DNA of 64,000 bases, taken from positions 806,001 to 870,000 of the forward strand of contig NZ_CP040812.1 of assembly GCF_006159205.1 (NCBI RefSeq), read 5' to 3'. Position 1 is the first letter of the stretch; the number at the start of each line of letters is the position of its first letter. Origin of the DNA: Antarcticibacterium flavum. GTDB lineage: Bacteria > Bacteroidota > Bacteroidia > Flavobacteriales > Flavobacteriaceae. The position numbers were made by a program, and so were the translations under genes. Positions 1 through 24,722 of the stretch are shown here, in pieces. The notes beneath the pieces are model-generated. The model had not been told where the DNA came from. It ran no database searches and saw only the letters and a program-made list of their open reading frames with translations.

Positions 1-114
1 TAGTACGATCTCAAGGAAAGAGATTTTTAACACCCACTTGATTGTGCCAGCGGCACGACCGATAAGGTAGCCCCGGAATTTATTCCGGGGAATCAACGCA
101 CACACTGTATTTAG

Positions 115-192
115 TGCCGTAGGTACGACCGATATATTTTTAAGGAGAATATATCATCAGCTACCGGTTTCAAATCGGCCATACCTACGGCA
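115..192. repeat. Long inverted repeat, unit 1
   Basis: The outer arms TGCCGTAGGTA and TACCTACGGCA are perfect reverse complements. Inner arms ACCGAT and ATCGG follow, leaving a variable AT-rich centre. It would fold as a long hairpin on either strand. Confidence 0.85.
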
Positions 193-380
193 TTTTTATC
201 CAGTCGTATTTATTATACCCGGGGTTGAAACCCCGGGCTACAAAATGGATCAGGCCTAACGGCATTTTATTACGAATTCCAAAAAGGAATCTTTTGCATT
301 CAACCCAAAGTGCCAGCGGCATGACCGATAAGGTAGCCCCGGAATTTATTCCGGGGAATCAACACACATAAAGTATTTAG

Positions 381-458
381 TGCCGTAGGTACAACCGATA
401 TATTTTTAAGGAGAATATATCATCAGCTACCGGTTTTAAATCGGCCATACCTACGGCA
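381..458. repeat. Long inverted repeat, unit 2
   Basis: Same arms as the copy at 115-192 (TGCCGTAGGTA / TACCTACGGCA). It has near-identical loop sequence, differing by a few substitutions. Confidence 0.85.
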
Positions 459-647
459 TTATTATCTGTGTGTATTCATTATACCCGGGGTTCAAACCCC
501 GGGCTACGAAATGGATCATGACTAACGGGATTTTAATACGATCTCAAGGAAAGAGATTTTTAACACCCACTTGATAGTGCCAGCGGCACGACCGATAATG
601 TAACCCCGGAATTTATTCCGGGGAATCAACGCACACACTGTATTTAG

Positions 648-725
648 TGCCGTAGGTACGACCGATATAATAAAAGATGGAATATTTCAACAGTTACCGG
701 TTTTTTAATCGGCCATACCTACGGC
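648..725. repeat. Long inverted repeat, unit 3
   Basis: The outer arms are conserved (TGCCGTAGGTA / TACCTACGGC) but the loop differs from units 1 and 2. Stem conservation with loop drift suggests that the hairpin itself is maintained. Confidence 0.8.
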
Positions 726-5719: not shown

Positions 5720-5722
5720 CGA

Positions 5723-5953
5723 GTTAGGAGTTAGACGTTAGACGTTAGACCTTAGACCTTAGACCTTAGACGTTAGACGTTAGACGTTAGACGTTAGACG
5801 TTAGACGTTAGACGTTAGACGTTAGACGTTAGACGTTAGACGTTAGACGTTAGACGTTAGACGTTAGACGTTAGACGTTAGACGTTAGACGTTAGACGTT
5901 AGACGTTAGACGTTAGACGTTAGACGTTAGACGTTAGACGTTAGACGTTAGAC
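5723..5953 (+). repeat. Array of 33 heptamers, mainly GTTAGAC
   Basis: It is exactly 33 units in one register: GTTAGGA, GTTAGAC x3, CTTAGAC x3, GTTAGAC x26. It begins 3 bp after a stop codon. Near-perfect identity implies recent expansion by slippage, so copy number is likely variable between isolates. Confidence 0.97.
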
Positions 5954-6025
5954 AAAATTAAATTTTCCCTGGCAGAAGTAACTTTTTGGTGGGGATTTTT
6001 TTGTTTTTATTTGGGATTGAGCTCT

Positions 6026-6053
6026 GTTTTCCGTTTTCCGTTTTCCGTTTACG
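6026..6053. repeat. Four heptamers GTTTTCC
   Basis: Three GTTTTCC units followed by GTTTACG. It lies between the two larger arrays and has the same 7-bp period. Confidence 0.85.
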
Positions 6054-6065
6054 GTGATTTTTTTT

Positions 6066-6191
6066 TTGGAATTTGGAATTTGGTGCTTGGAATTTAGTGC
6101 TTGGAATTTTTCTCTTTTCTCTTCTCTTGTTTCTTGTTTCTTGGCTCTTGTTTCTTGTTTCTTGTTTCTTGGCTCTTGTTTCTTGATTCTC
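6066..6191 (-). repeat. Array of 18 heptamers of several types
   Basis: 18 units are held in one register with no slip. Six are TTGGAAT-like, three are TTTTCTC-like and nine are GTTTCTT/GGCTCTT/GATTCTC. On the minus strand the last group reads AAGAAAC and AAGAGCC. The array ends on the stop codon of the minus-strand dnaE-like gene (stop 6190-6192). A short ORF through it gives a KKQET-type peptide and is not a gene. Confidence 0.93.
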
Positions 6192-9155
6192 AATATGCTT
6201 TTTCCAACCTCGGGTCTCCCGCTGTTTCCTGCCTCGCTACCCACTGCACCGTAATGGAAATATACCCAAGTTCATCTACCACCCTGCCGCTGCATAAATA
6301 AATTCCTTTGGTCCTCATAGGATATTTTTGCGCCACCTGCGGGAAATGTACGGTATCAAAAATATCCCCGTCCATATCGTAAAAAGTACTAAAGTACATA
6401 TATTCCCTTTTTACCGTAGGTGTGGTTTTGGATGTTATGAGATTCCCGTAGATACGCACTTCCTTTCCTATATATCGCTTTAAATCCTTTGCCTTTACAG
6501 AAGGTTGCAAGGGATTCTTCAGCAATTCAAAATGGCTGCAAAGGGGGAAGCCCAGCAGTTCCATCTGGTCATAGGCCTCTACCAAAAAGGAATAGGAAAA
6601 TTGCGGCAGTTCAAAATCCCGGTGTTGCGGTTTGAATAAAAGCGCCTGGTTGGCGATCGCTTTGGTCTTATTCAGCTTAAAATGGGCTTTCCAGAGCAAG
6701 TGATGCTTATCCTCGCCGGTGAACCTAAAGGCATTTATCTTCAGCAGAATACTTATTTGCTCTATAGAGATGGGGACCCTGTCAATAAAATCATCCAGCG
6801 AGGTAAATTCTCCATAGAACTGCCGGTTCTCAAGGATGCGCTGCACCACTTTTGTCTCCAGTTCCTTTATATAACCAAAGCCCAGGTAAATATCCTTACC
6901 GTAGATCACATTAGGGTGATCGCTTTTATTGAGATGCGGCGCATGTACGGTCCCGCCACATTTGCGTATTTCCTGGATATAGGTCTCCACATCATAAAAT
7001 CCGCCGCCGTTGTTGAGGGCAGCCACCATGAATTCCAGCGGGAAATAGCGTTTTAAATACAGGCTCTGGTAACTTTCTACCGCATAGGAAGCAGAGTGTC
7101 CCTTGGGAAAAGCATAGCCCGCAAAGGAGGCGATCTGGTCCCACACCTCCTTCACCAGCTGCTCCGGGTGGCCTATCTTCCTGCAGTTTTCGTGAAACTT
7201 TTGTTCAATTCGTTCCATATCCTTTTGCAGGTTCTTTTTCCCGCTCATTCCCCGGCGAAGCACATCTGCATCATCAAAATCCAGATGGGCAAACTTGTGG
7301 GCTATCTTCATCACATCTTCCTGGTAGACCATTACCCCATAAGTATCTTCCATAATTTCATACATCACCGGGTGCGCCTGTTTTCGTCTTTCGGGATCCC
7401 GATGCCTTTTGATGTACTCCTCCTTCATCCCGCCACTCGAAATTCCGGGACGAATAATAGAGCTGGCAGCGACCAGGTTAAGGTAATTATCTGTTTGCAG
7501 CTTTATGAACAGGCCACGCATTGCAGGGGATTCAATATAGAAAACCCCCATACAATCTCCGGTTTTCAATAAATAATTGATCTCCGGGTCCTCTTTAAAG
7601 ACCTTGATATTCTCAATATCTTCGATATAAGCATTGGGCTGATTTTGTTTAATGATCTCAATGGAATCTGTGATCTTGGAAAGCCCCCGCTGGGCCAGGA
7701 TATCAAATTTGTGAATGCCCACATCCTCGGCAATATGCATATCTATTTGCACCGTCCTGAACCCTTTAGGCGGCAGGAAAGTACCGGCGTAGTTATTAAC
7801 AGAATCATTGAGGATCATAATTCCGCCGGAATGTACGCTAAGGTAATTGGGAAATCCTTCAATTTTCGAGCTGTAGCGTATCACCAGCTTCTCCATTTCA
7901 TCCAGATCATTATAGCTGAAATACCCGGCTGAGAGTCGGTCGATCTGTTCTTTCGGCAATCCGAAGACCTTTCCCAGTTCCCGCGCTACCGCCCTGCGTT
8001 TAAAGGTCACATAAGTTCCCATAAGGGCGGTATTCTCATATTTATCAAAAATATATTGGGTGACATCGTTACGGTCCTTCCAGGAGAAATCGATATCAAA
8101 ATCGGGCGGAGAATTACGAAAGGCGTTGATAAACCGCTCAAAGTAAAGGTCGAGTTCTATGGGGTCTACATTGGTGATGCCAAGAATATAAGCCACAACA
8201 GAGTTGGCACCACTCCCCGTCCTATGTAAGGAAAATTCCTTGACCGGGCATACTCCACGATATCCAGGTTAATAAGAAAATAAGACACGAACCCCAGGCT
8301 AATAATAGCGTCCAGCTCCTTCTCAATCCTGTGCAGCACATTTTGTCCTGCTTCAGGATACCGCCGCGGGATCCTTTCATAGGTAAGCCGGCGCAGTTGC
8401 TGCTCATCTGCCTGTTGATCATTTCCAAAAATCTGCAGATTGCGGTTAACAGAATCTTTCCCAAAAGGGAATTCCACTTTACAATTCTGGATAATAGCTT
8501 CAGTATTTTCCAGGACAAAAGGATAATCTTCAAAAGCGGTTGCAATTGCTTCCGGAGCTATCATTTGCTGCGAGTAATCTCCCTGCTCGGTTTTCGGAAG
8601 CTGACTAAGCAGGATATTATTATCAATAGCCCTTAACAGCCGGTGCGCATTATAATCATTTTTATTGCGGAAGCTGACTGTTTGCAGCAGCACGAGCTTA
8701 TTGGTAAACCTGAGATATTTTGAAAATTTCAGCTTCCTTAGGCTCTCTACGGAAACGCCTATAAATTCATTCTCGCTGAAGGTGGTCCTCTTCTGAAGCT
8801 CCATCTGCTCCAGCGGATAAATAAAATAGCAGTCCTCCAATGGCGGGGCGGTATTTTTGAAGTTTTTTTGCTGGTGCAGGTAGGCAGATAAATGCTCATT
8901 CAGTTTCCTGAAACCATCATTATTTCGCGCCAGTCCTACATACTGCTGCTGCGCCCCATTGCGAAAATCTATGCCCACCAGCGGCTTTATCCCATATTCA
9001 GGAGCCATCTTCAACAGGTTCATACAGGCAGAAGTATTATTGATATCTGTAAGCGCCAGTGCCTTCACTTCAAACTTTTGCGCCAACCCGCACAGCGCCT
9101 CCACAGAGAAGGTCCCGTAGCGTAAGGAGTAGTATGTGTGGCAGTTGAGGAACAT
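6190..9155 (-). pseudogene. dnaE: DNA polymerase III alpha-type polymerase (DnaE/ImuC-like), single frameshift
   Basis: The two halves are in different frames: 9155-8166 (PHP domain and start of the palm) and 8196-6190 (rest of palm, fingers, OB fold). They join at GRG|SGANSVVAYILG. The run GACGGGG before AGT lacks one base at about 8215-8218; restoring it gives a continuous protein of about 988 residues. The catalytic palm motif PDFDIDF is in the second half. The PHP site is degenerate (HTYYSLRYG, LTDINN), as expected for a polymerase without proofreading. At about 1000 residues, and next to dinB, it resembles the damage-tolerance DnaE2/ImuC type rather than the replicative enzyme. The shift may be a sequencing error in a G-run, a true loss, or recoding. 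Confidence 0.85.
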
Positions 9156-18291: not shown

Positions 18292-20697
18292 ATGAAAAGA
18301 AGAATTAACAAAGTTGCCGTAATTGGTTCCGGGATCATGGGAAGCGGGATTGCCTGCCATTTTGCCAATATTGGTGTGGAGGTGCTCCTGTTGGACATTG
18401 TACCCCGTGAACTCAATGAACAGGAAAAGAAGAAAGGCCTCACGCTGGAAGATAAACAGGTGCGCAACAGGCTTGTGAATCAGGCTTTACAGGATGCCTT
18501 AAAGTCCAAGCCCTCCCCTATTTATCACAAGGATTTTGCCAGCAGGATCAAAACCGGAAACCTGGAAGATGATATTTCCAAGGTATCTGAAGCAGACTGG
18601 ATCATTGAAGTGGTTGTGGAGCGTTTAGATATCAAGAAAAAGGTTTTTGATAACCTGGAGAAACATCGTAAAGAGGGGACCCTTATTACTTCCAATACTT
18701 CGGGAATTCCAATTCAGCTTATGAATGAAGGAAGAAGTGAAGATTTCAAAAAACACTTCTGCGGAACGCACTTCTTTAATCCGCCACGATACCTTCGGTT
18801 GTTCGAGATCATTCCGGGGCCGGACACTTCAGAAGAAGTTCTTGAATTCCTGAATGAATACGGTGAGAAATTCCTCGGAAAAACTTCTGTAGTTGCAAAA
18901 GACACTCCTGCCTTTATAGGAAACAGGATTGGGATCTTCAGCATAATGAGTCTCTTCCATATGGTGAAGGAGATGGATATGACGGTGGAGGAAGTGGATA
19001 AACTTACCGGTCCGGTGATTGGAAGGCCCAAGTCGGCTACTTTCCGTACTGTAGACGTTGTAGGTTTGGACACCCTTGTACACGTAGCTAACGGACTTTA
19101 TGAAGGCGTGCCTAACGATGAGCAGCACGAACTTTTCAAGTTGCCCGAATTCATCCAGACGATGATGGATAACAAATGGCTGGGAAGTAAGACCGGACAG
19201 GGTTTTTATAAGAAAGAAAAGAAAAAGGACGGTTCCAGTGAGATCTTAACCCTGGACTTGGATTCTATGGAATACCGCGAGGGGAAAAAAGCAAATTTTG
19301 CTACCCTGGAGCAAACCAAATCCATTGATAAGGTAGAAGACCGTTTTGAGGTACTTATAAATGGTAAGGATAAAGCCGGAGAATTCTACAGAAAAAATCT
19401 TGCAGCACTTTTTGCTTACGTTTCTAATAGGATCCCGGAGATCACAGATGAGCTTTACAAAATTGATGATGCCATGCGAGCCGGTTTTGGCTGGGAGCAC
19501 GGGCCATTCCAGATCTGGGATGCCGTAGGAGTGAAAAAAGGTATTGAAATGATTAAGGCCGAAGGTTATGAACCTGCAGGCTGGGTGAATGAAATGCTGG
19601 AAAGCGGCAGTGACAGTTTCTATACTGTTAAGGATGGTAATTCATATTACTACGATATCCCACAGAAGAAACAGGTAAAGGTTCCGGGTCAGGATGCCTT
19701 TATTATTCTTGACAACATTCGGGAGAGCAAAAAAGTCTTTAGTAACAGCGGGGTTGTAGTGGAAGATCTGGGCGATGGAATTCTGAATGTGGAATTCCGA
19801 AGTAAAATGAACACTATTGGCGGTGATGTCCTTGATGGCCTTAATAAAGCCATTGATATGGCTGAAAGAGATTACCAGGGGCTTGTAGTTGCCAATAATG
19901 GAGCCAACTTCTCTGTAGGTGCCAACATAGGGATGATATTTATGATGGCTGTAGAACAGGAATATGAGGAGCTTAATATGGCTATAAAATACTTCCAGGA
20001 TACAATGATGCGCATGCGTTATTCTTCCATTCCTACCGTGGCAGCACCGCATGCAATGACCCTTGGAGGTGGTTGTGAGCTTTCCCTCCACGCAGATAAA
20101 GTAGTGGCCGCGGCCGAAACTTATATAGGATTAGTAGAATTTGGAGTTGGTGTAATCCCCGGTGGTGGTGGTTCCAAGGAAATGACGGTAAGAGCATCTG
20201 ACACTTACAAAAAAGACGATGTGGAGCTAAACCGACTGAGAGAACATTTCCTCACCATCGCAATGGCGAAAGTCTCAACATCTGCCCACGAGGCTTTTGA
20301 CCTGAATATCCTTCAGAAAGGTAAAGATATTGTAGTGGTAAATAAAGACAGGCAGCTGGCAATCGCCAAGCAACACGCTTTACTCATGGCTGAGAATGGC
20401 TACACAAAACCAATTCACAGGACAGATATCAAAGTACTTGGAAAACAAGCTTTGGGAACCTTTATGGTAGGAACAGACCAGATGGTAGCAGGAAAATATA
20501 TAAGTGAGCATGATCGCAAGATCGCCAATAAACTCGCTTATGTAATGAGTGGTGGAGACCTCTCTGCCGCCACAATGGTAAGCGAACAATATCTGCTAGA
20601 CCTTGAAAGAGAAGCATTCCTATCCCTAACCGGAGAAAGAAAAACCCTAGAAAGATTGCAGCATATGTTGCAGAAGGGGAAACCGCTTAGGAATTAG
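18292..20697 (+). CDS. fadN: 3-hydroxyacyl-CoA dehydrogenase/enoyl-CoA hydratase (FadN type)
   Basis: 801 residues, two beta-oxidation enzymes in one chain. The N-terminal dehydrogenase has the Rossmann loop VIGSGIMGSGIA (about 9-20) and the active-site region GTHFFNPPRYLRLFEI. Its second helical domain follows to about 340, with another dehydrogenase C-terminal repeat near 370-440. The enoyl-CoA hydratase domain is C-terminal (about 480-700): NNGANFSVGANI and APHAMTLGGGCELSLHAD. This order (dehydrogenase first) is that of Bacillus FadN, opposite to E. coli FadB. It is followed by fadA and fadE as in the B. subtilis fadNAE operon. A heptamer array begins 2 bp past the stop. Confidence 0.93.
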   Translation: MKRRINKVAVIGSGIMGSGIACHFANIGVEVLLLDIVPRELNEQEKKKGLTLEDKQVRNRLVNQALQDALKSKPSPIYHKDFASRIKTGNLEDDISKVSEADWIIEVVVERLDIKKKVFDNLEKHRKEGTLITSNTSGIPIQLMNEGRSEDFKKHFCGTHFFNPPRYLRLFEIIPGPDTSEEVLEFLNEYGEKFLGKTSVVAKDTPAFIGNRIGIFSIMSLFHMVKEMDMTVEEVDKLTGPVIGRPKSATFRTVDVVGLDTLVHVANGLYEGVPNDEQHELFKLPEFIQTMMDNKWLGSKTGQGFYKKEKKKDGSSEILTLDLDSMEYREGKKANFATLEQTKSIDKVEDRFEVLINGKDKAGEFYRKNLAALFAYVSNRIPEITDELYKIDDAMRAGFGWEHGPFQIWDAVGVKKGIEMIKAEGYEPAGWVNEMLESGSDSFYTVKDGNSYYYDIPQKKQVKVPGQDAFIILDNIRESKKVFSNSGVVVEDLGDGILNVEFRSKMNTIGGDVLDGLNKAIDMAERDYQGLVVANNGANFSVGANIGMIFMMAVEQEYEELNMAIKYFQDTMMRMRYSSIPTVAAPHAMTLGGGCELSLHADKVVAAAETYIGLVEFGVGVIPGGGGSKEMTVRASDTYKKDDVELNRLREHFLTIAMAKVSTSAHEAFDLNILQKGKDIVVVNKDRQLAIAKQHALLMAENGYTKPIHRTDIKVLGKQALGTFMVGTDQMVAGKYISEHDRKIANKLAYVMSGGDLSAATMVSEQYLLDLEREAFLSLTGERKTLERLQHMLQKGKPLRN

Positions 20698-20699
20698 AA

Positions 20700-21175
20700 G
20701 TGAGATGTGAGACGTGAGACGTGAGACGTGAGACGTGAGATTTAAGATATGAGAGGTTAGAAAAAGAATAATTAAAAACTGGTGATATGCATAATTTTCA
20801 AGAGTTAAAGATTTGGCAGAAAGCAATGGATGTTGCAGAACAAACATATATTCTTTCGGCTGAATTTCCTAAAGAAGAAAAATTTGGTTTGACAAGTCAA
20901 ATTAGGAGAAGTGCAGTTTCCATTCCTTCAAATATAGCTGAAGGTGCAGGACGCAACACAAATGGTGAATTCAGAAATTTTCTTGGTATTGCCAGTGGTT
21001 CTTCGAACGAATTATTTACACAACTAATCTTATCTAACCGTCTCCATTTAATCTCTGAAGACAAAACACAAGCATTAATAAAAGATTTGATTGAGGTTCA
21101 AAAGATGAATTACACTTTGATAAAGAAATTTTCAAAATAAATCTCATATCTCAAATCTAATATCTAAATACTAAA
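20700..21175 (+). mobile_element. S23 gene cassette flanked by inverted heptamer arrays (locus E)
   Basis: Left array 20700-20762: nine units in one register (GTGAGAT, GTGAGAC x4, GTGAGAT, TTAAGAT, ATGAGAG, GTTAGAA). Right array 21141-21175: ATCTCAT, ATCTCAA, ATCTAAT, ATCTAAA, TACTAAA, which on the minus strand read NNNAGAT. The arms are thus inverted and enclose only the 117-residue S23 gene. The cassette sits between fadN and fadA without damaging either. The arrays are directly visible; that the unit moves as a cassette is inference supported by the second copy at 22373-22875. Confidence 0.55.
20787..21140 (+). CDS. Four-helix-bundle protein, S23/23S rRNA IVS-like family
   Basis: 117 residues, all helical. 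It matches the family first known from ORFs in 23S rRNA intervening sequences: FQELKIWQKAMDVAEQTY at the N-terminus, then the signature SQIRRSAVSIPSNIAEG (37-53) and a C-terminal helix IKDLIEVQKMNYTLIKKF. There is no rRNA here. The molecular role of the family is unresolved, with nucleic-acid interaction often proposed. Heptamer arrays border it on both sides and the right one starts at the first base after its stop codon. It is co-oriented with the host operon and would be transcribed with fadN and fadA. A distinct paralogue lies at 22475. Confidence 0.88.
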   Translation: MHNFQELKIWQKAMDVAEQTYILSAEFPKEEKFGLTSQIRRSAVSIPSNIAEGAGRNTNGEFRNFLGIASGSSNELFTQLILSNRLHLISEDKTQALIKDLIEVQKMNYTLIKKFSK

Positions 21176-21178
21176 AAA

Positions 21179-22372
21179 ATGAATCGAACAGCATACATCG
21201 TAAAAGCATACAGGACCGCAGTGGGGAAGGCTCCACGGGGAGTGTTCAGGTTTAAGAGGCCTGATGAACTTGCGGCAGAGACTATTGAACATTTAATGAA
21301 GGATCTGCCTCAACTGGATAAGACCAGGATAGATGACGTAATGGTAGGAAATGCGATGCCCGAGGCAGAGCAGGGACTCAACATGGGTAGATTAATCTCC
21401 CTTATGGGGCTAAAGATCGAGGATGTACCCGGGGTAACCGTAAACCGTTATTGTGCATCTGGTCTTGAGACCATCGCAATGGCATCTGCAAAGATCCAAA
21501 CGGGGATGGCAGATTGTATTATCGCAGGTGGTTCTGAAAGTATGAGCTACATCCCTATGGGAGGATATAAACCTGTACCCAATTATGAAGTGGCGAAAGA
21601 AGGTAATGAGGATTATTATTGGGGAATGGGCCTTACGGCAGAAGAGGTAGCGAATCGCTATAATATCTCCCGTGAGGACCAGGATGAATTTGCCTATAAC
21701 TCTCATCAAAAGGCTCTAAAAGCTCTCAAGGAAGATAAATTCAAGGAGCAGATCGTACCTATTGAAGTAGAAGAAACTTTTATCAATGAGGAAGGTAAAA
21801 AAGATACCAGAAAATATACGGTAACCCAGGATGAAGGTCCGCGGGCTGATACCTCGAGAGAAGTACTTGCCAAACTAAGGCCTGTATTTGCTGAAGGTGG
21901 AAGTGTAACCGCAGGAAACGCCTCACAAATGAGTGACGGTGCCGCCTTTGTAATGGTGATGAGCGAGGAAATGGTAAAGGAATTAAACCTGGAGCCCATT
22001 GCAAGACTTGTAAGCTACGGCGTTGCAGGAGTGGATCCAAGAGTAATGGGAATAAGCCCTGTAATAGCAATTCCGAAAGCACTAAAAAGAGCCGGTTTAA
22101 ACCTGGACAAGATTGAGCTTGTAGAATTGAACGAAGCTTTCGCATCCCAATCACTTGCTGTGATAAGGGAAACCGGACTTGATCCAAACAAAGTTAACGT
22201 AAATGGTGGAGCCATCGCAATGGGTCACCCACTAGGCTGCTCTGGAGCAAAGCTCACCGTACAGATCTTTGACGAAATGCGAAAACGCAACCACCAGAAC
22301 AAGCATTGTTTAGTTACTATGTGCGTAGGAACAGGACAGGGTGCTGCGGGGGTGTTTGAGTTTTTGAATTAG
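21179..22372 (+). CDS. fadA: Acetyl-CoA acyltransferase (thiolase)
   Basis: 397 residues, the last enzyme of each beta-oxidation round: cleavage of 3-ketoacyl-CoA by CoA in the cytosol. The nucleophilic cysteine is in NRYCASGLETIAMA (about 88-101). The His of GGAIAMGHPLGCSGAK (about 345-360) and the Cys of TMCVGTGQGAAG (about 377-388) complete the active site. Length and motifs are those of the degradative thiolase I family. It lies between fadN and fadE; S23 cassettes lie on both sides. The start has only a few bases to the preceding heptamer array, so its ribosome-binding site was probably reshaped by the insertion. Confidence 0.95.
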   Translation: MNRTAYIVKAYRTAVGKAPRGVFRFKRPDELAAETIEHLMKDLPQLDKTRIDDVMVGNAMPEAEQGLNMGRLISLMGLKIEDVPGVTVNRYCASGLETIAMASAKIQTGMADCIIAGGSESMSYIPMGGYKPVPNYEVAKEGNEDYYWGMGLTAEEVANRYNISREDQDEFAYNSHQKALKALKEDKFKEQIVPIEVEETFINEEGKKDTRKYTVTQDEGPRADTSREVLAKLRPVFAEGGSVTAGNASQMSDGAAFVMVMSEEMVKELNLEPIARLVSYGVAGVDPRVMGISPVIAIPKALKRAGLNLDKIELVELNEAFASQSLAVIRETGLDPNKVNVNGGAIAMGHPLGCSGAKLTVQIFDEMRKRNHQNKHCLVTMCVGTGQGAAGVFEFLN

Positions 22373-22875
22373 AGTCTAGACGGCTAGAATCTAGAACCAA
22401 GAGACAAGAACCAAGAGATAAGACTAAATAGGCTATAGTCTTATATCAATTCTGGACTTTAAGGGAAAGGTAAAATGAAAAGGCACAATTTTAAAAGGAT
22501 GAAGATTTGGCAGGAGGGAATTTCTGTTGTTCAGATCACTTATAAAATTGTTAAGACTTTTCCCGATTATGAGAAATACAATCTTGTCTCCCAATTAATA
22601 AGATGTGCGGTATCCATTCCTTCAAACATTGCAGAAGGAACGAGCAAAAGAACAGAACGGCATTTTATTCAGTTCCTAGAAAATAGCCTGGGTTCGGCAT
22701 TTGAGTGGGAAACGCAGATAATAGTAGCCTATAAAGAGAATTACATCACCGAGGATGAATTCAATTTATTTGAAGAGAAAATTCAGGATTTACAAAGAAT
22801 GATATCAGGATTCATAGATAACCTCGATAATAAGTCTTGATTCTTGTCTCTTGTTTCTTGAGTCCTAACTAATAA
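22373..22875 (+). mobile_element. Second S23 gene cassette with inverted heptamer arrays (locus F)
   Basis: The left array 22373-22440 starts on the base after the thiolase stop codon. It reads TCTAGAC, GCTAGAA, TCTAGAA, CCAAGAG, ACAAGAA, CCAAGAG, ATAAGAC (one base slip), then decays. The right array 22834-22875 reads TCTTGAT, TCTTGTC, TCTTGTT, TCTTGAG, TCCTAAC, the minus-strand counterpart CAAGA. It overlaps the S23 stop codon. Same organisation as 20700-21175 but with different heptamer sequences and a divergent S23 gene. This argues for two separate insertions or long divergence, not a recent duplication. Confidence 0.55.
22475..22840 (+). CDS. Four-helix-bundle protein, S23/23S rRNA IVS-like family (second copy)
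   Basis: 121 residues. It shares the family frame with the product of 20787-21140: FKRMKIWQEGISVVQITYKI, the core SQLIRCAVSIPSNIAEG (39-55), then a C-terminal helix. It diverges strongly elsewhere: TERHFIQFLENSLGSAFEWETQI replaces NGEFRNFLGIASGSSNELFTQL. Function is unknown. It lies between fadA and fadE, framed by heptamer arrays; the last codons and stop lie inside the right array. Base composition looks like its neighbours, so there is no obvious recent foreign origin. Confidence 0.88.
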   Translation: MKRHNFKRMKIWQEGISVVQITYKIVKTFPDYEKYNLVSQLIRCAVSIPSNIAEGTSKRTERHFIQFLENSLGSAFEWETQIIVAYKENYITEDEFNLFEEKIQDLQRMISGFIDNLDNKS

Positions 22876-22901: not shown

Positions 22902-24722
22902 ATGAGCACACAAACAAATACAAAACAAAAAGATCTCCTAAGAGGAGGGCAATTCCTGGTGAAGGAAACAGATAGTGAAAACGTCTTTACACCGGAAGAT
23001 TTTACAGATGAGCAGAAGATGATGAAAGAATCTGTAACAGAATTCGTGGACAGGGAAATATGGCCACGCAAGGAAGAGTTTGAGCAGAAGAATTACGAGC
23101 TAACCGAGGAGTTGATGCGTAAAGCAGGCGAAATGGGATTCCTTGGAGTTTCGGTACCTGAAGAGTATGATGGCCTGGGAATGGGGTTTGTCACCACGAT
23201 GTTAGTGGTAGATTATATTTCCGGAGCTACGGGATCTTTCTCTACGGCTTTTGGAGCACATTCAGGAATAGGGACTTTACCTATCACTCTGTACGGAAAT
23301 GAAGAGCAGAAAAAGAAATATCTGCCTAAACTTGCAACCGGAGAATGGTTTGGAGCTTACGCATTAACAGAACCCGGAGCGGGAAGTGATGCCAATAGTG
23401 GTAAGACCAAAGCCGTACTTAGCGAGGACGAAAAATACTACAGCATTACCGGCCAGAAAATGTGGATCTCCAATGCGGGGTTCTGCAATATGATGATAGT
23501 TTTTGCCCGAATAGAGGATGACAAGAATATTACAGGCTTCATAGTTGAATACGATCCTGAAAATCCTAATGGAATATCCCTTGGGGAAGAAGAAAAGAAA
23601 CTGGGGATCCACTCCTCCTCTACCCGCCAGGTTTTCTTTGAAAATACCAAAGTACCGGTAGAGAATATGCTTGCAGGACGTGGGGAAGGCTTTAAGATTG
23701 CCATGAATGCCCTTAACGTAGGCCGTATAAAACTGGCCGGAGCCTGTTTGGATGCAGAACGCCGGGTTATAGATTCGTCAGTTAAATATGCAAACGACAG
23801 GGTACAGTTTAAAACACCTATCGCCCAGTTTGGCGCCATCAAATCCAAACTAGCAGAGATGGCAACATCAGCTTACGCAGGGGAATCTGCATCTTACAGG
23901 GCTGCAAAGGATATCGAAGACAGGATTGCTTTAAGGCAGGAAGCCGGGGCTTCACACCAGGAAGCAGAACTTAAAGGTGTTGAAGAATATGCTATTGAAT
24001 GTTCAATCCTAAAGGTTGCAGTATCTGAGGATCTTCAAAATGTTACAGATGAAGGCGTCCAGATCTTTGGAGGTATGGGCTTTAGTGCAGATGCCCCTAT
24101 GGAATCTGCCTGGAGAGATGCCCGTATTACGAGGATCTATGAAGGGACCAACGAGATCAACAGGATGCTTTGCGTGGGAATGCTTGTAAAGAAAGCTATG
24201 AAAGGGCATGTAGACCTGCTTGGGCCTGCAACTGCAGTTGGAAAAGAACTTACTGGAATTCCTTCTTTCGATAAGCCCGATTATACAGAGCTCTTTGCTG
24301 AAGAAAAAGAGATCATCAAAAATCTTAAGAAAGTATTTTTAATGGTAGCAGGTAGTGCAGTACAAAAATTTGGACCGGACCTGGAGCAACATCAACAGCT
24401 CTTACTAGCTTCAGCAGATATTTTGATTGAAGTTTATATGGCAGAATCTGCTATTCTTCGTACGGAAAAGAATGCAAAACGTTTTGGGGAGGATAAGCAG
24501 AAAGAGCAAATCGCAATGTCCAAATTGTATCTTTACCACGCAGTAGATATTATTAACCAGAAAGCAAAAGAGGGAATTGTTTCTTTTGCTGAAGGGGATG
24601 AGCAGCGAATGATGCTTATGGGACTTAAGAGATTCACCAAGTATCAAAATCAGCCGAACGTGGTGGAGTTGAGAAACACTATTGCAGACAGGTTAATTGC
24701 AGATAATAAATATTCGTTTTAA
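22902..24722 (+). CDS. fadE: Acyl-CoA dehydrogenase
   Basis: 606 residues, a flavoenzyme that oxidises acyl-CoA to trans-2-enoyl-CoA and passes electrons to electron-transfer flavoprotein. The FAD/substrate motif ALTEPGAGSDANS (about 155-167) and WISNAGFCNMMIVFARI are present, and the catalytic region RIYEGTNEINRM lies at about 411-422. The extra C-terminal ~180 residues (from LVKKAMKGHVDLL) are a VLCAD-like extension, which fits long-chain substrates. It ends the fadN-fadA-fadE operon with a strong terminator. The MarR operator at 17648 is the likely control point. Confidence 0.95.
   Translation: MSTQTNTKQKDLLRGGQFLVKETDSENVFTPEDFTDEQKMMKESVTEFVDREIWPRKEEFEQKNYELTEELMRKAGEMGFLGVSVPEEYDGLGMGFVTTMLVVDYISGATGSFSTAFGAHSGIGTLPITLYGNEEQKKKYLPKLATGEWFGAYALTEPGAGSDANSGKTKAVLSEDEKYYSITGQKMWISNAGFCNMMIVFARIEDDKNITGFIVEYDPENPNGISLGEEEKKLGIHSSSTRQVFFENTKVPVENMLAGRGEGFKIAMNALNVGRIKLAGACLDAERRVIDSSVKYANDRVQFKTPIAQFGAIKSKLAEMATSAYAGESASYRAAKDIEDRIALRQEAGASHQEAELKGVEEYAIECSILKVAVSEDLQNVTDEGVQIFGGMGFSADAPMESAWRDARITRIYEGTNEINRMLCVGMLVKKAMKGHVDLLGPATAVGKELTGIPSFDKPDYTELFAEEKEIIKNLKKVFLMVAGSAVQKFGPDLEQHQQLLLASADILIEVYMAESAILRTEKNAKRFGEDKQKEQIAMSKLYLYHAVDIINQKAKEGIVSFAEGDEQRMMLMGLKRFTKYQNQPNVVELRNTIADRLIADNKYSF

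Follow-up and report, generated by a model that had tools for sequence, protein, structure and literature searches.

In the 64,000-nucleotide stretch of the Antarcticibacterium flavum genome analysed here (contig NZ_CP040812.1, positions 806,001 to 870,000, hereafter the window), two small genes for S23 proteins lie within a beta-oxidation operon, each framed by tandem heptamer arrays in inverted orientation. This framing is real and was confirmed for both genes, and it is general beyond the window. The two cassettes are probably intercistronic relatives of the intervening sequences (IVS) of 23S rRNA, i.e. IVS-like stem-loop elements. This interpretation builds on the observed anatomy and its generality, on the presence of such an element in one 23S rRNA gene, on the presence or absence of elements at corresponding sites, and on their replacement as whole units. 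Since the window copies do not lie in rRNA, they are filed as IVS-like only and not as 23S IVS.

Anatomy of the two cassettes

The PF05635 scores of the two S23 genes were 135 bits (gene 1) and 118 bits (gene 2) at a cut-off of 33.8, and both genes also passed TIGR02436. The cassettes comprise the following features:

20696..20754, + strand: left arm of cassette 1, heptamer array of the GTGAGAC type that begins in the stop codon of the gene before it (period 7, Tandem Repeats Finder)
20787..21140, + strand: S23 gene 1, 117 aa (PF05635/TIGR02436)
21138..21175, - strand: right arm of cassette 1, inverted heptamer array from the S23 stop codon to just before the thiolase ATG
22371..22428, + strand: left arm of cassette 2, TCTAGAC followed by CAAGAGA-type heptamers (outer limits by eye)
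22475..22840, + strand: S23 gene 2, 121 aa (PF05635/TIGR02436)
22835..22864, - strand: right arm of cassette 2, inverted heptamers of the CAAGAGA type, beginning within the C-terminal codons of S23

The first left array overlaps the TAG stop codon of the preceding gene at 20695-20697, and the second begins, as judged by eye, in the TAG stop codon of the thiolase gene (22370-22372), while Tandem Repeats Finder covers 22393-22423. Compared as inverted repeats, the arms of cassette 1 match over 28 nt at 75% and over 24 nt at 83%, those of cassette 2 over 30 nt at 87% and over 24 nt at 83%. S23 is the only open reading frame (ORF) of at least 60 aa wholly inside each cassette. Since the two S23 proteins are only 38% identical, a recent duplication of one cassette is rejected. 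The heptamers are unlike as well (GTGAGAC in cassette 1 vs TCTAGAC and then CAAGAGA in cassette 2), and the original prediction that the two cassettes are different units is supported.

Both cassettes are located between protein-coding genes of beta-oxidation, and neither inside an rRNA helix nor in a tRNA-Leu group I intron. The host genes, the first two of which are named as in the original prediction, are:

18292..20697, + strand: 3-hydroxyacyl-CoA dehydrogenase/crotonase ('fadN'), upstream of cassette 1 (best NCBIfam match, below the model cut-off)
21179..22372, + strand: acetyl-CoA C-acyltransferase ('fadA'), between the cassettes (TIGR01930 above cut-off)
22902..24722, + strand: acyl-CoA dehydrogenase FadE, downstream of cassette 2 (NF058590 above cut-off)

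Four S23 genes were found in the genome, all of them with inverted heptamer arrays within about 0.5 kb (by eye). For the two genes outside the window, these arrays lie mostly beyond the 100-nt flanks that were scored as described in the following.

Complementary flanks of S23 genes in other genomes

For each S23 gene, the 100 nt upstream were compared without gaps to the reverse complement of the 100 nt downstream, with a threshold of at least 12 and a stricter one of at least 14. This scoring misses gapped matches and arrays farther out (as at loci L003 and L004). Counts are given per locus, and since loci at one site share ancestry, the statistics overstate independence.

S23 genes were present in 15 of the 16 genomes of the genus, with 94 matches in total; G004 was the only member without any. 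After seven short fragments were dropped, some of them below the family cut-off, 87 of the 94 matches formed the genus set. Complementary flanks reached at least 12 in 46/87 and at least 14 in 29/87, compared to 10/87 and 7/87 in direct orientation. When flanks were swapped between loci, 3.0% of the pairs reached the lower and 1.5% the stricter threshold, and among other genes of six genus members the numbers were 6/701 and 0/701. A period-7 score of at least 9 was found in 33/87 upstream and 30/87 downstream flanks of S23 genes, vs 8/701 and 27/701 for the control genes.

The GTDB set comprised 80 loci from GTDB contigs scanned with a 12-sequence alignment, of which 79 were scored (one flank was too short). 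Here, 53/79 loci reached at least 12 and 44/79 at least 14, compared to 14/79 and 12/79 in direct orientation. Other genes of the same loci gave 14/409 and 8/409, or 11/394 and 6/394 without genes near any S23 motif, and one of these remaining six controls of at least 14 (L239) was, by eye, an S23-like gene that the motif filter had missed. The original prediction would have been refuted by flanking repeats no more frequent at S23 genes than elsewhere; instead, the framing of S23 genes far exceeded that of other genes in both sets (46/87 vs 6/701; 53/79 vs 11/394). For a third set, 395 genomes of the phylum were scanned with a different query. It comprised 30 loci, 28 of them scored (the motif was not found in two), and showed at least 12 in 15/28 and at least 14 in 11/28, compared to 4/28 and 2/28 in direct orientation. 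The period-7 threshold was reached there in 5/28 upstream and 8/28 downstream flanks, so period 7 is less dominant in this set. Altogether, the predicted framing of S23 genes by inverted repeats, mostly of 7 bp, was borne out in the window, the genus and both further sets.

By eye, most high-scoring controls turned out to be further S23 genes, genes adjoining a cassette or enclosed by two of them, or RAYT-like genes; ordinary genes occurred as well. Among them were RAYT-like transposase ORFs with inverted flanks (by eye; L187 11191-11766 and L198 11665-12180) and thiolase genes with inverted flanks (L199, L204 and L187). The latter would be expected if cassettes flank fadA on both sides in other Bacteroidota families too.

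With taxa taken from the record names, many of them metagenome bins for which single assignments may be wrong, at least 12 was reached by 40/62 Bacteroidota loci and 13/17 others in the GTDB set. These 13 belonged to Cyanobacteria, Thiohalocapsa, Beta- and Deltaproteobacteria, Clostridia (with one Oscillospiraceae), Patescibacteria (with one Nomurabacteria), Omnitrophica, Gemmataceae, Ignavibacteriae and one unnamed bacterium. Neither of the two Alphaproteobacteria reached the threshold.

A strict 7-bp rule has to be rejected, as 8- and 9-bp arrays exist in the genus and GTDB sets. The '7-bp arrays' of the original prediction therefore describe most but not all cases: the constant feature is the complementary arms, with units most often but not always of 7 bp.

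Both neighbours were co-directional with S23 in 82/87 genus and 67/80 GTDB loci, compared to 114/181 other genes and 30/42 size-matched genes from the GTDB loci. This fits an element that needs transcription together with its host, or one that is purged from other places.

An S23 element within a 23S rRNA gene

On plasmid AZO_p2 of Azospirillum lipoferum 4B, an S23 gene lies within a 23S rRNA gene. Its arms comprise AGAGGAC/GGATGAC-type heptamers and their inverse (score 23.5), and with a fold z of -10 this rRNA-resident element showed the strongest RNA fold. Another rRNA copy of this strain, on AZO_p3, has an identical sequence over the 537 nt preceding and the 591 nt following the site, where a 19-nt hairpin stands in place of the 473 nt of AZO_p2, a net difference of 454 nt. 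No target-site duplication was seen in this one filled/empty pair. The comparison fits the description of IVS as an extended stem-loop that replaces a small tetraloop helix (PMC4990558, on Coxiella; this and the other papers given by PMC number are cited from excerpts of their text). The operon copies and the AZO_p2 rRNA copy share the protein family, the arms and the replacement of a short stretch.

Gain, loss and exchange of cassettes

For the beta-oxidation site, the genus was compared to 28 fad loci of other genera, chosen for the best FadA scores among 149 genomes and thus not a random draw. The gap between fadN and fadA holds S23 in 12/15 genus loci and in 11/28 loci of other genera (one of the 28 undetermined). 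Gaps with S23 are 376-511 nt long, apart from one reading of 1,132 nt, whereas in four genera the gap comprises 3-5 nt.

At this site, the divergence of S23 does not parallel that of FadA: S23 identity is 37% at a FadA identity of 96% for G008/G002, 45% vs 92% for G003/G001 and 55% vs 92% for G012/G000 (G000 being the present genome), and the relation is reversed in G012/G003 with 86% vs 80%. The cassettes of the pair with 96% identical FadA also differ in their heptamers. G008 and G002 share 87% and 89% identity in the 150 nt bordering the gap on its two sides, and neither in this pair nor in G003/G001 do the flanks change clearly at the junction. Long-tract homologous recombination is therefore not favoured as the cause of these two swaps, while for G012, whose fadA start is nearer to G000, recombination through the flanks may have been involved.

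A comparable situation was observed on Nostoc plasmids, where among five records of one site two are filled, two (both from strain C057) are empty and one, from ATCC 53789, carries inverted arrays without S23. This last element (L292) has GGGAAC/CTTAAC-type arms. In the fad operon, inverted arrays without S23 were found at fadN-fadA in L279 and, by eye, at fadA-fadE in G005, G006, G008 and G013, all four of which have S23 elsewhere. The expectation that arrays would be absent where S23 is absent thus held in part: the S23-less G004 has no four-fold NNNAGAN array, but its fadN-fadA gap ends in an array-like remnant (by eye), and the fadA-fadE arrays just named stand without the gene. Judged from these sequence comparisons, arms and gene together form a unit that is acquired, lost or replaced by another.

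Another explanation would be that S23 genes are residents, inherited vertically at operon gaps, with arrays formed by slippage near stop codons, arm likeness by template switching (quasi-palindrome correction) and no mobility at all. The occupation of the same site in several genera, the 91-96% identity of some same-site S23 proteins across species and the frequent start of the left array in the host stop codon (partly by eye) would agree with it. We nonetheless regard it as very unlikely, given the unrelated S23 types at one site despite 92-96% identical FadA, the presence/absence between rRNA copies of one strain and among Nostoc plasmids, and the fact that type A S23 retains TGTATAG-type arrays in four species (by eye).

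Most improbable, in our assessment, is a role as domesticated regulators, in which hairpin and S23 would be retained because they adjust how stable the neighbouring cistrons are or how well they are translated. While the location between co-directional genes and the recurrence in core operons (beta-oxidation; by gene names assigned by eye also sufA-sufB, hisH-hisA and ffh-folD) could be read in this way, four genera of the family manage with gaps of 3-5 nt instead, and heptamers and S23 type are exchangeable.

Heptamer arrays across the genome

In 464 kb of the genome (the window and 20 evenly spaced 20-kb stretches), 51 segments of period 7 and 42 of period 14 were found, compared to 0-1 for every other period from 4 to 15. 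Since periods 7 and 14 stand out in this way, the heptamer arrays are not due to chance. Forty-seven of the 51 period-7 segments lie outside called ORFs, and for 15 an inverted partner is present at a distance of up to 700 bp. The four-fold NNNAGAN pattern matched 881 times in this genome, 339 times in G010 and 353 times in G011, compared to 0-45 times in other genus members and 0 times in G004, which lacks any S23 match. In the present genome, this flood often comprises several unit types consecutively, mostly without S23. By contrast, no period-7 segment of score 14 occurred in 80 kb each of five other genus members. Arrays near S23 are accordingly a genus trait, whereas the genome-wide flood was observed in this genome, G010 and G011. 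A general heptamer background of the genome is not a sufficient cause of the framing, as five members showed no period-7 segment and S23-flanking arrays are nevertheless found across the genus.

Within the window, one pair of arrays without S23 lies between convergent genes:

5721..5953, + strand: S23-less GTTAGAC heptamer array after a stop codon, facing the following array
6023..6190, - strand: heptamer arrays of other types without S23, facing the preceding array

A tandem repeat of 266 bp with 2.7 copies (window 4-725) also adjoins a heptamer array. At two distant places of the genome (L037 18696-18765 and L043 7539-7608), an identical 70-nt tail-to-tail junction joins a minus-strand array to a plus-strand array and resembles the S23 framing in reverse. 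Apart from the arrays, a DNA polymerase III alpha-like protein of the window is apparently split into overlapping frames at 6190-8196 (-) and 8166-9155 (-), both of which show matches to several shared models; this may be a frameshift, an assembly error or a true split.

Pairing of the arms and nature of the element

The calculated duplex energy of own arm pairs was -40.0 kcal/mol compared to -24.6 kcal/mol for swapped pairs in the GTDB set, and -28.8 compared to -21.9 kcal/mol in the genus. At 37/79 GTDB and 25/87 genus loci, the own pair ranked in the top 5% relative to its swapped pairs. A pairing of the arms is thus supported by swapped-pair tests and duplex energies.

Based on these data, we propose an element in which a long stem, with complementary short tandem arrays, mostly of 7 bp, as arms, would hold the S23 gene in its loop. 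The element would replace a short spacer between cistrons, or a helix tip in 23S rRNA, and would sit mostly in the sense of transcription. Arms and gene would be gained, lost and exchanged as a unit, with S23-less versions existing as well. In the transcript, the arms may pair and be cut by RNase III like those of rRNA IVS, and S23 could bind the arm hairpin. Arrays of repeat units would allow the arms to alter length and sequence while remaining complementary.

Several observations weigh against this interpretation. G-U wobble failed as support for pairing in the sense RNA, since the bias was opposite: arm mismatches compatible with G-U numbered 56 vs 93 other transitions in 73 genus loci and 45 vs 84 in 68 GTDB loci. 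In Bacteroidota, A is favoured over G just upstream of start codons, and as both arms lie just upstream of start codons, such A-rich translation leaders may produce the skew against G-U. The folds of the window cassettes are modest (z of -2.6 and -3.5). A considerable number of S23 loci remained below the threshold of 12 (41/87 genus, 26/79 GTDB and 13/28 in the third set), and the co-direction of the size-matched controls leaves a moderate sense bias. Regarding rRNA context, no blastn match to Azospirillum rRNA was found at the 80 GTDB and 30 third-set loci, and rRNA-resident S23 is one case only. The array background is high in the genome of A. flavum, where most sampled heptamer arrays have no adjoining S23. 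For the swap in G012, the last 150 nt of fadN are slightly nearer to the donor-like G003 than to G000 (78 vs 71%). Finally, the fad-site S23 proteins of G002, G005 and G006 are 91-96% identical across species, and since they stay together in this way, much of the history is vertical.

The outcome of the wobble test, in which no selection on RNA is visible, would suit a mobile cassette acting at the DNA level, with the arrays as terminal inverted repeats recognised either by S23 itself or by a recombinase whose gene lies elsewhere, and with an RNA pairing that is incidental. Presence/absence and whole-gap replacement point in the same direction, and the S23-less inverted arrays look like non-autonomous copies. 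However, the unit lacks a transposase, the Azospirillum comparison gave no target-site duplication, the heptamers vary among elements and so provide no fixed end sequence, and the co-direction with neighbours would be needless for a DNA element. Such a cassette is in our opinion unlikely. The term 'mobile' of the original prediction is accordingly retained for presence/absence and replacement, but not for a mechanism of transposition, as no transposase was found in the window units and no target-site duplication in the Azospirillum pair.

A wider extension of the IVS-like reading is possible, although we consider it doubtful. Here, S23 would mark bacteria-wide selfish stem-loop elements in transcribed gaps (mRNA operons, rRNA, perhaps introns), and an S23 pentamer, as kin of Avd, would act on the heptamer hairpin, building or homogenising the arrays and moving the element via an RNA or cDNA intermediate; the genes annotated as 'four helix bundle protein' that are dispersed over core operons and cas operons would then be parasites rather than functional partners of the adjoining genes. 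In the solved Xanthomonas case, S23 is a pentamer. Solved structures related by sequence are 2gsc and 2rld.

Comparison with known systems

Intergenic heptamer direct repeats are known from cyanobacteria as short tandemly repeated repetitive (STRR) sequences. RAYT is a Y1 transposase, and the repetitive extragenic palindrome (REP)/RAYT systems comprise a small gene with inverted repeats between genes. They resemble the cassettes in the small intergenic gene and the inverted repeats, whereas S23 is not a Y1 transposase. TAACTGA heptamers in Beggiatoaceae, Cyanobacteria and Bacteroidetes (PMC4679880) are likewise intergenic 7-bp repeats from overlapping phyla; in contrast to the present arrays they have been described as direct rather than inverted, one inverted case apart, and the words 'S23', 'intervening' or 'four helix' do not occur in that paper.

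A homology between PF05635 and Avd of the diversity-generating retroelements has been suggested (PMC10053308). The window S23 proteins show weak hidden Markov model similarity to Avd, but with 26.9 and 21.2 bits for DivGenRetAVD they stay far below its cut-off of 80. No reverse transcriptase was found beside S23 at the four S23 loci of the genome, the six RVT_1 matches genome-wide all lying elsewhere.

In the P6b stem of the tRNA-Leu group I intron of Nostoc and Calothrix, 7-nt repeats of the type TDNGATT or NNTGAGT vary in copy number, and the whole region is replaced between lineages (PMC4476775). Both arms of that stem derive from one 7-nt motif, which resembles the present arms, and TGAGT-type units also occur in the present data. 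Unlike the cassettes, the stem lies inside a group I intron, and an S23 gene is not mentioned in the excerpt of that work.

Small genes of this family have been reported in other places. IVP ORFs occur in rRNA insertions of Candidate Phyla Radiation (CPR) bacteria (PMC11270868), IVP genes are found in cas loci, e.g. between cmr3 and cmr2 (PMC3936711), and in Flavobacterium columnare a four helix bundle gene lies between those for guanylate kinase and nicotinate-nucleotide adenylyltransferase (PMC5524665). The IVP genes in cas loci would be explained by intercistronic elements. Keyword searches of the open-licence literature, which are no proof of novelty, listed no publication recognised as linking S23 genes with heptamer arrays, and the excerpts of the papers cited here contain no description of S23 genes framed by inverted heptamer arrays; the inverted framing is apparently undescribed.

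The closest relatives are the 23S rRNA IVS with an S23 ORF. These are bordered by complementary sequences that form a stem-loop, occur sporadically and replace the tip of a small helix; the function of S23 proteins is unknown, and the role of IVS is hardly understood (PMC4990558). The 'new mobile cassette family' of the original prediction is therefore real and apparently undescribed as regards the framing, but in the light of the heptamer-armed S23 in 23S rRNA it is kin of a known group. Our data suggest that this little-understood class of rRNA insertions also lives between ordinary genes. If the element is common there, it could be investigated at sites that do not depend on it and that allow a direct comparison of filled, empty and swapped states. 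Scattered 'four helix bundle protein' genes, a part of the intergenic heptamer arrays and perhaps heptamer-built stems such as P6b of Nostoc trnL would then share one explanation, and the gene neighbourhood of 'four helix bundle protein' genes should not be taken as a guide to their function. Compared to the IVS described so far, the window copies differ in their position between protein-coding cistrons and in their tandem-heptamer arms, which the excerpt of PMC4990558 does not mention. They agree in the PF05635 protein and the complementary borders, both of which are present in the window cassettes, and the Azospirillum rRNA copy has heptamer arms like theirs.

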